This document shows, in pieces, positions 14,237-20,358 of a DNA stretch of 42,345 nucleotides (position 1 is the first letter of the stretch; each line of letters starts with the position of its first letter). The stretch lies in the NCBI GenBank assembly GCA_016213895.1, contig JACQZJ010000067.1, forward strand, positions 1 through 42,345. Direction: 5' to 3'. Position numbers and translations under genes: made by a program. The stretch is from Planctomycetota bacterium. GTDB taxonomy: Bacteria; Planctomycetota; B15-G4; JADJEK01. The notes under the pieces are model-generated. The model did not search any database, had not been told where the DNA came from, and saw nothing but the letters and a program-made list of their open reading frames with translations.

Positions 14237-14368
14237 CCCGTAGTCCCGGGCGAACGTCCCCGGCGCGCTCCGCGAGGCGTGATTCCGCCGGGGAGTTCAG
14301 GATTCTCGCCCGATCTCCCGAAAAGGGGTGCACGACACCAGGGATCGAGCACCTCGTGGGAGATCGCG

Positions 14369-16006
14369 GTGATAGACGCGGTCGACAGCAGCGCGCGCGC
14401 CAGCGGAGCGGCCCCGGCGCCTCAGGGCGGAGGGCCCGCTGCGGCGCTTTCCCCGGGCCTGCCGCGCATCGCGGGCTTCAGGCTGGAGCGCCTCCTCGGC
14501 CAGGGCGGGATGGGGATGGTCTACCTCGCGTGGGAAGAGGCCCTGGAGCGCTGGGTGGCGCTGAAGGTCCTCCCGCCCCGCTTCGTGGACGAGCCTGAGG
14601 CGCTGGAGCGCTTCCGGCGCGAGGCCCGGGCCCTGGCGCAGATCGACCACCCCAACATCGTCCAGATCCACGCCATCGGCGAGCCGGACGGACTGCCCTT
14701 CTTCTCCATGGCCTACGTCGAGGGCGAGCCGCTCGGCGACGCGCTGCGCGCGGCCGCGGCGGGCGCCGAGAGCCGCTTCGCCCACTTCTTCCGCCGGCGT
14801 CACAGCAACGACCGCCGGCCAGACCTCGCGGCCGCGCTCGTCGCCCAGGCGGTGGCCGGAGCTCTGGCGGATCTGCACGCCGTCGGCATCGTGCACCGCG
14901 ACATCAAGCCGGGCAACATCATCATCGATGCCAGGGGCAGACCGATGCTCGTGGACTTCGGCGTGGCCTGCGACCCGAACGCGACGCGGCTCACCACCGA
15001 AGCCGCCTCCCCGGGCACGCTGCGCTTCATGCCGCCGGAGCAGCTCAACGCCGCGGGCGCCGCGGCCGTGGACGTGCGCTCCGACGTGTACTCGCTCGGC
15101 GTCACGCTCTTCGAGACGCTGACGCTCAGGCCGGCCTTTCCCCAGGACGAGATCGGGGCGCTCATCGACGCCATCCGCCAGGGCAGGATGGAGGGGCCGC
15201 GCGCGGTCGATCCAGCCGTGCCGCGGGCGCTCGACGAGATCGTGCGCTGCGCGGCGGCGCGCCGCCCCGATGACCGCTTCCAGAGCGCCGCGGACCTGCT
15301 CGCCGCCCTGCGCGCCGCGACCTGCGCGCTCGCGGACCCGGGCAGCCTCTCCGGCACGGCGCTCACCCAGGAGCTCGACCGGGCGATCGAGAAGCGCGGC
15401 CGCTCCAGCGAGCGCGGCTTCTTCAAGCGCCGCCTCGGCGCGCGTGCGGGCGCGCTCGACCCCGGGCGGCGGCGACGGCGACGGCGCGCGTGCGCCGCGG
15501 CGGCCTGCGTGCTGGGCGCGGGGATCGCGTACGCGGCCTTCCTGGGCCTCGGCCGGTTCGGACCGGAGAGCGGGAGCGTTGCCGCGCGGGATGTGCCGCG
15601 GCCCGATGCCTCCGCGACGCCGGATCCTCCCTCCGCTGCTCTGCCGGCCCCGGCCGGGGATGCCCTGATCCGGCCCGGAGTCCGCGCGCGCATGGCCGCG
15701 GACGCCCTGGCGCGCCTGCGCGAGTTCGCGGCGAGCGGGGAGCGCACGCCGCTGCTCGAGGCGGCCGAAGCCCTCCTCGCCGGGGACCCGGCCCAGGCCC
15801 GCCGGATCCTCTCTTCCGTCCGCGAACCCGGCGAACCGCGCGCCCGCGCGATCTACTGGCAGCTGCTGCTCGAGGTCGGCGATTCCCGCGAGCGGCAGAT
15901 CGCCCTCGAGATGCTCGCCGCCGCGGGAGCGGCGCCGGTCGCGCGCCGCCCGGACCCGAAAAGGACGGCGGGCGACCTCCGTATGGGAAGCCGCCCGCCG
16001 CCTTGA
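14369..16006 (+). CDS. transmembrane Ser/Thr protein kinase (PknB-type)
   Basis: 545 residues. The kinase domain spans about 37-320: GQGGMGMVY glycine loop (44-52), catalytic Lys66 (VALKVL), HRDIKPGN (His176-Asp178), DFG (196-198), an activation segment ending SPGTLRFMPPEQ, and SDVYSLGVTLFE. Between the hinge and helix E there is an Arg/His-rich insert (about 127-152) not usual in these kinases. A basic linker, one membrane segment (about 375-395) and a periplasmic C-terminal helical region follow. GTG was chosen as start because GGGAG lies 6 nt before it. The gene is 132 nt after the S9 gene and has no receptor repeats, so the signal it senses is unknown. Confidence 0.9.
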   Translation: MIDAVDSSARASGAAPAPQGGGPAAALSPGLPRIAGFRLERLLGQGGMGMVYLAWEEALERWVALKVLPPRFVDEPEALERFRREARALAQIDHPNIVQIHAIGEPDGLPFFSMAYVEGEPLGDALRAAAAGAESRFAHFFRRRHSNDRRPDLAAALVAQAVAGALADLHAVGIVHRDIKPGNIIIDARGRPMLVDFGVACDPNATRLTTEAASPGTLRFMPPEQLNAAGAAAVDVRSDVYSLGVTLFETLTLRPAFPQDEIGALIDAIRQGRMEGPRAVDPAVPRALDEIVRCAAARRPDDRFQSAADLLAALRAATCALADPGSLSGTALTQELDRAIEKRGRSSERGFFKRRLGARAGALDPGRRRRRRRACAAAACVLGAGIAYAAFLGLGRFGPESGSVAARDVPRPDASATPDPPSAALPAPAGDALIRPGVRARMAADALARLREFAASGERTPLLEAAEALLAGDPAQARRILSSVREPGEPRARAIYWQLLLEVGDSRERQIALEMLAAAGAAPVARRPDPKRTAGDLRMGSRPPP

Positions 16007-16376: not shown

Positions 16377-16484
16377 TTAGGGCTTGGAATCCGTGCGGAC
16401 TCCGGACGCAGAACCGCAGATCCGGGAGTCACGCCGAGTCCTGTGGGGCAACTCCAGGGTCACCTAGCAGAAAAGCCAAGCGCC

Positions 16485-16994
16485 ATGAGCCAGACAGTTC
16501 CGGAGAAGAGCCCGGCGACCATGATCGTCGTCGAAGGGAAGAAGGCGCCCGATTTCACGCTGCTCGATCAGAACGGCGAGAAGGTCAGGCTGTCCAGGAA
16601 CTTCAAGGGCCGGAAAGTCATCCTCTACTTCTACCCAAAGGACCACACGCCGGGCTGCACGACTCAGGCCACCAAGTTCCGCGACGCCCTCCAGGAAGGA
16701 AGGTTCAAGGCCTTCGGCGCGGTGATCGTGGGGATCAGCCCGGACGAGATCGAGTCCCACTCCAAGTTCTCGCTCAAGTTCCTGCTGCCGTATAAGTTGC
16801 TATCCGACCCCGATCATGCGGTGGCCGAGAAGTACGGCGCCTGGGGAGAAAAGGTCCAGTACGGCAAGCGGACCATGGGGATCATCCGCTCCACGTTCAT
16901 CATCGACGAGAAGGGGATCGTCCGGAAGGTCTTCCCCAAGGTGAAGGTGGACGGCCACGCCGAGGAGGTTCTCGCGGCCCTGCAGGAGATCTGA
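16485..16994 (+). CDS. bcp: Bcp/PrxQ-type peroxiredoxin lacking the resolving cysteine
   Basis: 169 residues. AhpC/TSA-type thioredoxin fold with KAPDFTLLDQNG, then the active-site segment YPKDHTPGCTTQATKF: Thr and peroxidatic Cys58 are present. In two-Cys Bcp proteins the resolving Cys lies five residues further on; here that position is Thr63 and no other Cys exists, so this is a 1-Cys form that must be reduced by an external thiol. It removes H2O2 and organic hydroperoxides in the cytoplasm. The first ATG is assumed (weak ribosome site); an ATG at 16521 just before the domain, or a GTG at 16443, are alternatives. Confidence 0.92.
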   Translation: MSQTVPEKSPATMIVVEGKKAPDFTLLDQNGEKVRLSRNFKGRKVILYFYPKDHTPGCTTQATKFRDALQEGRFKAFGAVIVGISPDEIESHSKFSLKFLLPYKLLSDPDHAVAEKYGAWGEKVQYGKRTMGIIRSTFIIDEKGIVRKVFPKVKVDGHAEEVLAALQEI

Positions 16995-17187
16995 TCCTCG
17001 GGCTCGCGAGCGCGCGCCGCGCGCCGCGGTCGAGCAAGGGCCGCACATCGGCCGCGATCTGCTCAATCCACTTCGCCCCGAATCCCGATAAGAGGCCGGC
17101 GAGACGCATCGGACCCGGCAGAGGCGCCGGGCGCCGCAGTGCGTTCTCCCAGCGGATACCACGGATTATCGGATGCTCCGGGGGAAC

Positions 17188-19560
17188 ATGGACCGTCGAC
17201 AGGGAACGGTGGAGCGTGCGGTCACGATCGACTCGCTCCCACTCTCCAACCGGACGCTTTCCCGGCTGCGGGAAGCGGGCATCGTCTCGGCCGAGGAGCT
17301 CGCGGCGCGCACGGATGACGATCTGCTGGCGCTGCGCGGCTTCGGCCACACCTGTCTGCGCGAGGTGCGCGCGGCCCTGCGCGTGCAGCCGCCGAATGCC
17401 GGCGTCCCCGCCGTGCCGTTCGACGACAGCTCGTTCCCGGGCGACCTGGCCGAGACGCTCCTCGCTCTGCCGCTTCGCCACCTGCCGATCTCGAACCGGG
17501 CGCGCGGCGTGTTCGCGCGTGAGGGGATCGAGACGGTCGCGGACTACGTGCACGCCGGCGCGCGCAGGCTGCTCGAGCTGCGCAACCTCGGCGCCACCAC
17601 GCTCGCGGCGGTGAACCGCGTCATCAACGCCGCGCAGCGCATGCTCGCCCAGGGCGGCGGCGCCGGCGCGCAGCCTTTCCCGGCGCCCGAACTCGTCGGC
17701 GTGGACCTGCGCCTCGACCCGCGCCTCTCCCAGGTGCCGGTCGCCGCTCTCGACCTGCCCCGCCGCGCGCGCCGCGCCTGCCAGGACCTGGGACTGCGCA
17801 CGCTGCGCGACCTCACGCGCGTGTCGGCGAACGAGCTGCTCGTGCGCCGCAACTTCGGCCAGGCCACCCTGCGCCGCATCCAGGGCGAGATGGAGCGCTT
17901 CCTGCACGGTCAGACCGGAAACTGGCCCGAGGACTTCGCGGGCACCCTGGAACAGATCCTGGGCCGCCTGCAGCCCAAGGAAAGGCGCCTGGTCGAGCTG
18001 CGCGAGGGACGCGACCGCGACCAGCCGCACACCCTGACCGAAGCGGGCGCGGCCATGGAGATCACCGAGTCGCGCGCCTGCCAGATCGAGCACTCGGCCT
18101 GGGCCAAACTCAGGCGCTTCAGCGCGGGCATCACCGATCCGGCCGCGGACAACGCCGTCGCCGTCCTGATGCGGCACGGCGGCGTGGCCGATCCCGCTGT
18201 CCTGCAGGACTCGCCTTTCTTCGCCCAGGGCGGCCTGCGGCCGGGCTTCGTCGCGCGCATGCTGGCGCGCCTTCTGCCCCACCGGCTGGCGCGCCTCGCC
18301 GACGGCCGCCTGGCCGCGGTGCCCGCGGCCACGCTGTGCACGCTGGCCGCGCGCCTGCGCAAGCGCCTGCGCCGCTCCACGGAATCGCTCTCCCTGCGCG
18401 CGCTCACGAGCGAAGTGCTGCGAGGGCTCGATCTCGGCGAGGAGCGCCTCGCCCTGGTGCGCGCGCTGTGCGAGGCCTTGTTCGGGCGCGAGGTCGCGGC
18501 CGGTCCGGACGGCGAAGTCCTGGTGCGCACGCAGTGCCAGGGCCTCGGCGACGACCTCAGGCAGATCCTCCTCGCCGAGGGCAAGGCGCTGCACTTCAGC
18601 GAGGTGGCGCAGCGCCTCGCCCTTCCTCCTCTCCTGCGTCTCGGCCTGAGCGAGGAGAAGGTGCGCCTGCGGCTGTGCCGCGACCGCCGCTTCGTGCTGG
18701 TGCGGCGCGGCCTCTACGACCTGCGCGAGCGCTTCTCGGTGCAGGCGAGCCTCAAGACCGCGCTCGCCGACGCCGCGCTGCAGCTCCTCAAGGACTCCGG
18801 CCGCCCCACCTCGGTGGCGCTGCTCGGCGCCGCGCTGCGCGCGCGCTCCCAGTTCGCCGGCGTCAGCGAGTTCGTGCTGGCGGCCGTGCTGCGCGAGGAC
18901 GAGCGCTTCGCGCACCTCGGCCGCGGGACGTTCGCGCCGGCCGGCAGCCGCGCCACCGCCGTCCAGCACGTCTCCGAGATCCTGGAGTCGATCCTCTCCG
19001 CGGCCGGAGGCCCGCTCTCCTACTCCGAGCTGAAGCGGCGCGTGCAGGAGCGCCGCCAGGTGAGCGACGGCGCGATCTCGGCCACGCTCGTCGGCCGCGG
19101 CACGTTCCTGCGCGTGGCGCGCGGCATGTTCGACCTGGCGGAGCGCTACCCGTTCGACGGCGCGGCGCGCGAGCGCATCGCGCGCCAGGCCAGGGAACGC
19201 ATCGCCGCGGCGGGCGGCGTCATGCCGCTCGACCTGCTCGCCGAGCACCTCGACGGCTGCGCGCCTGGACTCGCGGCGCCGCCCGCGGCGATCCTGATCG
19301 GCGACCTGCTGCGCCGCACTGGCGGCTTCGAGTTCCTCGGCAGCGGCTACGTCGGCCTGGCGGGAAGCGATCTCTCCGAGTCGCTGGCGCGCCGCGCGCT
19401 CGACGTGCTGCTGCGCGAGGGAGAGCCGCTCAGGCCGACCGCCATCGCGCGCCGCCTCTCCCTGGACCAGGGAGCCGTCGCGTTGCTCAGGAAGATCCTG
19501 CGCAGCGATCGCCGCTTCCTGACCCGCCCGGAGGGCCGCTTCAGCCCCGCGCCGAGCTAG
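17188..19560 (+). CDS. alpha-CTD repeat / sigma-region-4 / multi-winged-helix protein
   Basis: 790 residues from the ATG preceded by GGGGGA; another ATG lies 15 nt upstream (17173), and the residue numbers here count from it. Three helix-hairpin-helix repeats like the RNA polymerase alpha C-terminal domain: 19-70 (LPLSNRTLSRLREAGI...LRGFGHTCLREV), 101-157 (LPISNRARGVFAREGI...LRNLGATTLAAV) and 189-244 (VRRNFGQATLRRI). At 257-317 a sigma70 region-4-like HTH (LQPKERRLVELREG...ITESRACQIEHSAWAKLRRF). From about 455 to the end about five winged-helix units, each closing with a beta-hairpin such as RRGLYDLRE, GRGTFAPAG or ARGMFDLAE, resembling HARE-HTH/RpoE-delta domains. No membrane segment or enzyme motif. 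Likely a DNA- or RNA-polymerase-binding regulator; target unknown. Confidence 0.75.
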   Translation: MDRRQGTVERAVTIDSLPLSNRTLSRLREAGIVSAEELAARTDDDLLALRGFGHTCLREVRAALRVQPPNAGVPAVPFDDSSFPGDLAETLLALPLRHLPISNRARGVFAREGIETVADYVHAGARRLLELRNLGATTLAAVNRVINAAQRMLAQGGGAGAQPFPAPELVGVDLRLDPRLSQVPVAALDLPRRARRACQDLGLRTLRDLTRVSANELLVRRNFGQATLRRIQGEMERFLHGQTGNWPEDFAGTLEQILGRLQPKERRLVELREGRDRDQPHTLTEAGAAMEITESRACQIEHSAWAKLRRFSAGITDPAADNAVAVLMRHGGVADPAVLQDSPFFAQGGLRPGFVARMLARLLPHRLARLADGRLAAVPAATLCTLAARLRKRLRRSTESLSLRALTSEVLRGLDLGEERLALVRALCEALFGREVAAGPDGEVLVRTQCQGLGDDLRQILLAEGKALHFSEVAQRLALPPLLRLGLSEEKVRLRLCRDRRFVLVRRGLYDLRERFSVQASLKTALADAALQLLKDSGRPTSVALLGAALRARSQFAGVSEFVLAAVLREDERFAHLGRGTFAPAGSRATAVQHVSEILESILSAAGGPLSYSELKRRVQERRQVSDGAISATLVGRGTFLRVARGMFDLAERYPFDGAARERIARQARERIAAAGGVMPLDLLAEHLDGCAPGLAAPPAAILIGDLLRRTGGFEFLGSGYVGLAGSDLSESLARRALDVLLREGEPLRPTAIARRLSLDQGAVALLRKILRSDRRFLTRPEGRFSPAPS

Positions 19561-19743: not shown

Positions 19744-20358
19744 TCACGCGTTGGGCCGATCCTCGCGCACCGGTGATGAGATGTCCGGGCTGGTTCGCGC
19801 AGCCGCGATCTCGAGCAAACGCGCCAGCATGCGCGCCTGGTGGCGCGCGTCAGCCAGCGCGTTGTGCGCCTCCTCCGCGGCCAGCGGCTCGAGACCGAGG
19901 AGCGGCAGGATCCTCTCCTGGCGCAGCTCCTGCCAGTCGAGATCGAGTACTCCCAGGGCGAGAGAGCGGATGTCCAGGGCCTTGTAGCCGAAGGGGTTCT
20001 CGATCCCGGCCCGATGGAAGAGGTCGTTGACGAACGCCCAGTCGAAGTTGGCGCAGTACCCCACGAAGACGGGTGGATCAGCCGGCGAGGCAACGCCCCG
20101 CAGCCAGCGTTCGACGCGGCGCGCGGCCTCCTCCGGGCCAAGGCCCTCGCGGCGCAGGCGCTCGAGATCAAGGCGGTTCACGGCCATCGCCTGCGGATCG
20201 AGAGCGCCGAGCAGGGGCTGGAGTTCGAGGTACAGCCCGTCGCCGCGCGGCTCATATGTGCCGCCGGCGCGCGCCACTGCCACCGCGCCCAGCGAAAGAA
20301 GGTCGAAGAAGCCCGGCAGGGGACCGCTCGCCTCGACGTCGACCGAGATGTAGACCAC
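19744..20358 (-). CDS. DEDDh 3'-5' exonuclease (RNase T/DnaQ-like)
   Basis: 204 residues. Exonuclease motifs in order: ExoI SVDVEASGP (D7, E9), ExoII GYCANFDWAF (catalytic Asp) and ExoIII AEEAHNALADARHQA (His and Asp), which makes it a DEDDh enzyme with an intact metal site. Family members trim RNA 3' ends or proofread DNA; this lone short form is closest in layout to RNase T-like and oligoribonuclease-like enzymes. GTG start, set by an AGGAAAGG site (20367-20374) 8 nt upstream; a longer open frame upstream crosses the tRNA on the other strand and is not real. The tRNA gene next door is on the opposite strand. Confidence 0.88.
   Translation of the reverse strand: MVYISVDVEASGPLPGFFDLLSLGAVAVARAGGTYEPRGDGLYLELQPLLGALDPQAMAVNRLDLERLRREGLGPEEAARRVERWLRGVASPADPPVFVGYCANFDWAFVNDLFHRAGIENPFGYKALDIRSLALGVLDLDWQELRQERILPLLGLEPLAAEEAHNALADARHQARMLARLLEIAAARTSPDISSPVREDRPNA

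Follow-up and report, generated by a model that had tools for sequence, protein, structure and literature searches.

What is the role of a stand-alone bacterial protein in which three copies of the C-terminal DNA-binding domain of the RNA polymerase alpha subunit (alpha-CTD) are followed by a sigma70 region 4 and an array of winged helices (wHTHs)? The gene encoding it lies in the window analysed here, a stretch of 42,345 nucleotides from a Planctomycetota bacterium (contig JACQZJ010000067.1), and a first-pass annotation of the sequence had proposed that its product imitates three RNA polymerase modules at once. Here we combine profile searches, structure prediction and genome comparison.

A conserved gene with an unusual product

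The gene occupies the following open reading frame:

17173..19560, + strand: whole gene, with three alpha-CTDs, sigma region 4 and six or seven winged helices (ORF, Pfam, orthologues, GC3, dN/dS)

Taking the ATG at 17173 as the start, the product has 795 amino acids. The first-pass annotation had begun the gene at 17188, an in-frame ATG (codon 6) that is equally possible; a clearly spaced Shine-Dalgarno sequence is absent at both candidate starts. The GC3 of the gene, 0.94, is the coding signature of its 72% G+C host genome, in which the gene is single-copy. Orthologues share 86, 61 and 55% identity with the window protein, and comparison with the same-genus copy gave a dN/dS of 0.30 (a pairwise value, with a dS prone to saturation), the domains being conserved and the linkers free, including the two between the alpha-CTDs. 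Between the window protein and that copy, conservation was highest in region 4 and the winged helix W1 (96%).

The proposed order of three alpha-CTDs, region 4 and a wHTH array in one stand-alone protein was borne out by Pfam, AF2 and Foldseek, and the profiles suggested for checking it (PF03118, PF04545 and PF05066) all matched above their gathering scores. The AF2 models, for which four sequences were used, reached a pLDDT of 71 and a pTM of 0.34 for the full chain, and 78 and 0.44 for its C-terminal part; they have the shape of beads on a string, formed by the three alpha-CTDs, region 4, six winged helices and a possible seventh. Pfam matched neither a catalytic domain nor sigma region 2 nor an alpha N-terminal domain in this chain. 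The whole protein has a pI of 10.7, and alpha-CTD 2, alpha-CTD 3 and most winged helices are net positive; the arginine-rich composition is partly a consequence of the 72% G+C. These analyses confirm that the protein is real, conserved and unusual, and they establish its domain order and content.

Alpha-CTD and region-4 domains with replaced contact residues

Three stretches were recognised by PF03118 (RNA_pol_A_CTD; E 5.5e-26, 90.5 bits versus a cut-off of 23.8):

17212..17388, + strand: alpha-CTD 1, residues 14-72, with R27 and G58 equivalent to R265 and G296 (PF03118, RpoA alignment)
17455..17640, + strand: alpha-CTD 2, residues 95-156, with R109 and G140 at these positions (PF03118, RpoA alignment, repeat comparison)
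17719..17910, + strand: alpha-CTD 3, residues 183-246, with R198 and G229 (PF03118, RpoA alignment, repeat comparison)

The three match one another at hhalign probabilities of 94-97% and are therefore true repeats, and the alpha-CTD model lies 0.7 Å from a Streptomyces alpha-CTD (7vpd_S; AF2 and Foldseek). When the orthologues were compared with the genome's own RpoA and that of E. coli, the equivalents of R265 and G296 proved invariant in all three domains, while those of N268 and K298 are replaced, leaving the full DNA-binding determinant R265/N268/G296/K298 (E. coli numbering) incomplete. For DNA binding by the alpha-CTD R265 is critical, and N268 also matters (PMC11434276). A paralogue of RpoA is ruled out, since the N-terminal dimerisation and assembly domain is missing by Pfam, and the genuine RpoA is encoded elsewhere (G000:C166).

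The same genome also encodes a TPR protein of about 460 amino acids with two strong C-terminal alpha-CTDs (G000:C135:2387-2833; L097, L098), which keep the R265/N268-type motif (SVRSRNCL, KNFGETSL). Two-alpha-CTD matches similar to it occur in most sampled Planctomycetota (L006-L031, L040-L065), and this TPR-alpha-CTD protein is possibly a phylum-wide polymerase-linked factor.

Downstream of the repeats, residues 263-314 match PF04545 (Sigma70_r4; 8.6e-10, 38.4 versus 24.1 bits), within these features:

17926..18132, + strand: sigma70 region-4 domain, residues 252-320 (PF04545, PDB sequence matches to SigA/RpoD, Foldseek 7kuf_B)
18064..18090, + strand: recognition-helix motif TESRACQIE, residues 298-306, replacing TRERVRQIE

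The model is 1.2 Å from region 4 of SigA (7kuf_B; AF2 and Foldseek), whereas the helix that reads the -35 box is ITESRACQIEH in the window protein as against VTRERVRQIEA in the RpoD of its own genome. At the positions of R584, E585, R588 and Q589 (E. coli sigma70 numbering), which we take to be the -35-reading residues, E, S, C and Q are found, so that three of the four are lost in the four orthologues. All four are identical over T298-H307, and the canonical helix is kept in the distant relatives L148 and L146 and in plasmid proteins, which makes the change lineage-specific and fixed. The modules named by the first-pass annotation are present, but to say that the protein imitates three polymerase modules at once was too literal, given the replaced -35-reading residues, the loss of N268 and K298 and the fact that nothing in the protein is specific to the delta subunit. 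A sigma factor is ruled out because only region 4 was matched by Pfam, without the region 2 responsible for core binding and -10 recognition. The sigma-factor repertoire of this genome (G000) is otherwise large, with 49 matches to sigma70 region 4.

The winged-helix array

The remainder of the chain divides into the following units:

18136..18321, + strand: possible winged helix, residues 322-383 (helices in AF2, hairpin of low pLDDT; conserved in the four orthologues)
18325..18528, + strand: winged helix W-b, residues 385-452 (AF2 H-H-H-E-E)
18532..18735, + strand: winged helix W1, residues 454-521, HARE-like (hhalign 92% to the HARE set; W1-W3 95.6%)
18742..18948, + strand: winged helix W2, residues 524-592, HARE-like (hhalign 93.5% to the HARE set)
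18958..19152, + strand: winged helix W3, residues 596-660 (PF05066 26.5 bits; hhalign 94.7% to the HARE set)
19156..19365, + strand: winged helix W4, residues 662-731, the least conserved unit (AF2; W2-W4 91.5%)
19366..19557, + strand: winged helix W5, residues 732-795 (AF2 pLDDT about 90; W2-W5 94%)

The earlier reading had recognised that the units are repeated but counted about five, where AF2 gives six clear helix/hairpin patterns, at residues 385-452, 454-517, 525-589, 600-655, 663-729 and 733-792, and the possible seventh at 322-383. PF05066 (HARE-HTH) matches residues 602-653 marginally above its cut-off (8.4e-6, 26.5 versus 25.9 bits), and the score lies above the cut-off in G002 (29.8 bits) and below it in G003 (23.5 bits). 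The HARE-HTH likeness that had been proposed for the array was examined by hhalign against a profile built on 30 such domains of other Planctomycetota; it holds for W1, W2 and W3 (92-95%) and weakly for W5 (79%), but not for W4 or for residues 322-452. Within the array, W1 pairs with W3, while W2 resembles both W4 and W5, which suggests that a pair of winged helices was duplicated.

We found no reason to retain a delta-type reading of the array. The delta subunit (RpoE) consists of one wHTH and an acidic tail; a HARE-type winged helix is common to both proteins, but the window protein has six or seven wHTHs and a basic C-terminus, its last unit having a pI of 11.5. HARE-HTH is moreover a broad wHTH family, and the best structural matches of the array were the generic tandem winged-helix proteins UFL1, SelB and RPC62, at 12-19% identity and with an unconvincing TM-score (Foldseek). 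The many wHTHs and the missing delta-type acidic tail rule out a delta homologue.

The combination of alpha, sigma and HARE is not new as such, since Aravind and Iyer reportedly noted in 2012 some bacterial proteins in which HARE-HTH is joined to features of the RNA polymerase alpha subunit and of sigma factors; all three elements are likewise present in the window protein and in L148. A search of the open-access literature did not find the same architecture.

Genomic context and distribution

Two genes flank the window gene directly:

16443..16994, + strand: peroxiredoxin (AhpC-TSA, Bcp-like; PF00578), upstream neighbour on the same strand
19747..20316, - strand: 3'-5' exonuclease (Rv2179c-like; PF16473), convergent neighbour

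The order bcp / gene / exonuclease extends over several genera: both neighbours adjoin the gene in L033, the peroxiredoxin also in L032 and the exonuclease also in L034. The exonuclease and the window gene stand tail to tail, and in L033 and L034 their 3' ends overlap or nearly touch; within the class this exonuclease occurs only where the window gene does, that is, in this family, while elsewhere in the phylum it occurs without it. The conserved order, together with the dN/dS of 0.30, indicates a maintained chromosomal function. The neighbours scanned in the 42-kb window encode proteases, transporters, cytochromes and a Ser/Thr kinase, with no defence gene among them, and on this ground membership of a local defence island is ruled out. 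The Ser/Thr protein kinase gene lies at 14279-16006, two genes upstream, and the same order is seen in L032. This same-genus MAG is publicly labelled Phycisphaera mikurensis, a label that looks doubtful given four family members in a class of 14 genomes.

The full protein was present, always at this locus, in all four sampled genomes of its Planctomycetota family and in none of the ten others of its class, sampling being uneven and only some candidates per genome being scored, so that absence elsewhere is weak evidence. Outside the class, a winged-helix profile run over 246 genomes of the phylum recovered three further proteins (L146, L147 and L148). Pfam found alpha-CTDs and region 4 in L148 and L146, HARE-HTH also in L148, and none of these in L147. 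The window family aligns with all three proteins at hhalign probabilities of 97.7-98.5% over 500-536 columns, colinear over most of the chain, against at most 0.9% for the controls (shuffled and reversed sequences, and eight unrelated proteins of the window). The genes around these relatives look, as read by eye, like housekeeping genes.

Other searches were less productive. A full-profile search of 392 phylum genomes, with two candidates scored per genome, was dominated by alpha-CTD-only matches and missed the distant relatives, and a query made of alpha-CTD 3, region 4 and the first wHTH gave only single-domain matches outside the family in 149 genomes. The HARE-HTH proteins of 294 genomes were mostly short open frames, none above 546 amino acids. 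No relative was found on the plasmids, phages and viral contigs searched with the window protein, and a viral fold search returned nothing specific.

Partial likeness to defence proteins

The PADLOC model for PglW matches window residues 187-346 at 1.5e-9. A PglW family search returned mostly kinases, from which six near-full-length PglW proteins were taken for comparison; in the alignment with these, residues 171-343 share the order alpha-CTD, HTH and wHTH with a GGV motif, at an hhalign probability of only 56%. PglW has been described as an alpha-CTD followed by three wHTHs (PMC12839542). Unlike the window protein, however, PglW of BREX type 2 is a 1400-residue NERD-kinase-iSTAND protein in a defence operon, and it lacks the Pfam match to sigma region 4 that the window protein has. 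Neither a NERD nuclease nor a kinase was found in the window protein by Pfam, and no BREX neighbours were found among the genes scanned.

Using the L148 protein as query, we matched alpha-CTD and region-4 proteins on alphaproteobacterial plasmids. In L160, L161 and L162 (NZ_CP015441.1, NZ_CP007048.1 and NZ_CP021031.1) the region-4 protein is encoded by an extra gene beside those for PbeA, a CxC small protein and PbeC; an alpha-CTD is recognised by Pfam in that of L160, and in Rhizobium dndDE and a RelA/SpoT-domain gene are also present at the plasmid Pbe locus. The antiviral action of the PbeABCD system is based on phosphorothioation (PMC6459918). Like the window protein, these Dnd/Pbe proteins (annotated "sigma factor-like HTH DNA-binding protein"; WP_063612567.1, WP_025398068.1) have an alpha-CTD-like stretch and then region 4, but their region-4 helix is canonical, their C-terminal half is different and their neighbours are defence genes. 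MzaA, of the MZA anti-phage system, likewise has a region-4 HTH in common with the window protein, but nothing else matches, and at 25 bits the match is far under the NCBIfam cut-off of 800. In all, the likeness to plasmid and defence proteins is limited to the alpha-CTD, region 4 and the residues directly following it. The first-pass annotation had named restriction-type homologues as evidence against its proposal; this applies in part, to the relatives in the Dnd/Pbe loci and to PglW, but the description does not extend to the window gene, which has no defence gene among its scanned neighbours and a conserved housekeeping locus.

Discussion

For the window protein we infer DNA binding, any polymerase contact and a regulatory role. 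The chain has no enzyme, region 2 or alpha N-terminal domain and sits in a stable chromosomal locus, which makes a multivalent transcription or promoter-architecture factor our best guess. In our judgement there is about an even chance that the protein is chromosomal, vertically inherited and non-enzymatic, a multivalent DNA-binding protein that would act in transcription or shape promoter-region DNA. Its single copy, its presence in four of four family genomes, domains scoring above their cut-offs, the kept R265 and G296 and the positive charge all count in favour, as do L146, L147 and L148, which share the chain and lie amid housekeeping-looking genes. On the other side, the loss of N268 and K298 and the replaced -35-reading residues suggest that these polymerase-derived domains may have taken on other functions; for tandem winged helices the ligand can also be RNA, as in SelB, or protein, as in UFL1 and ESCRT-II, alpha-CTD and region-4 relatives occur in defence loci, and the arginine richness is partly owed to G+C.

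The defence-linked relatives raise another reading, in which the chain would survey DNA for invading sequence, or for sequence with the wrong modification, and alert an effector encoded at another locus. It draws on the alpha-CTD and region-4 module beside PbeA, the CxC small protein and PbeC in plasmid Dnd/Pbe loci, on the PglW of BREX-2 with its match in the same order over residues 187-346 and its described alpha-CTD and wHTHs (PMC12839542), on the region 4 shared by MzaA and on the view that HARE-HTH domains read modified bases (PMC10853773). We nevertheless consider such a sensor unlikely, since the scanned genes of the 42-kb window include no defence gene, the same housekeeping locus recurs in several genera, and the gene is in every sampled family genome rather than patchy, with none found on plasmids or phages. 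Bridging or coating of DNA by a nucleoid organiser, with no promoter or polymerase role, would suit the beads-on-a-string build, with its 10-11 potential DNA-binding units, low pTM, free linkers and lack of an effector domain. However, region 4 and the alpha-CTD are specifically polymerase-derived, a passive bridge would not need region 4 and W1 to be the most conserved units (96% in the same-genus copies), and a distribution in one family with scattered distant relatives is unlike that of core nucleoid proteins, so that this role appears rather improbable.

To a role in RNA binding, translation or RNA decay we give very little weight. The array would bind RNA as SelB does, perhaps with the neighbouring exonuclease, and Foldseek matches to the SelB WH domains and UFL1 are consistent with this, as is the convergent neighbour, a conserved exonuclease of the Rv2179c type, which is RNase-like; but the matches are to generic tandem winged helices (12-19% identity, low TM-score), three DNA-type alpha-CTDs point to DNA, and the exonuclease is convergent, not co-directional, and elsewhere in the phylum occurs without the window gene.

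If the protein is a multivalent transcription or promoter-architecture factor, the three alpha-CTDs would most likely grip the minor groove through the kept arginine and, together with several basic winged helices, most likely bind an extended length of DNA, the linkers between them being flexible. The altered region 4 would no longer read the -35 box and would instead either add one more DNA contact or dock on the RNA polymerase beta-flap. A bolder version, which we regard as distinctly unlikely, is a stand-alone polymerase companion whose three alpha-CTDs and winged helices would occupy promoters while the freed region 4 docks on the beta-flap, where it would take the place of sigma region 4 or compete with it at selected promoters of a single Planctomycetota lineage; this would be a new class of transcription factor made from polymerase parts, and a possible source of PglW and the Pbe-linked readers.

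Finally, the pairing of alpha-CTD and region 4 recurs in housekeeping loci of Planctomycetota and in plasmid Dnd/Pbe defence loci, with a similar chain in the PglW of BREX-2. The altered region-4 helix offers a natural experiment on a region 4 without -35 reading. If these pairings are one module, it becomes testable whether such proteins find DNA via the host's transcription machinery, and whether defence borrowed a transcription-linked DNA reader or the reverse.
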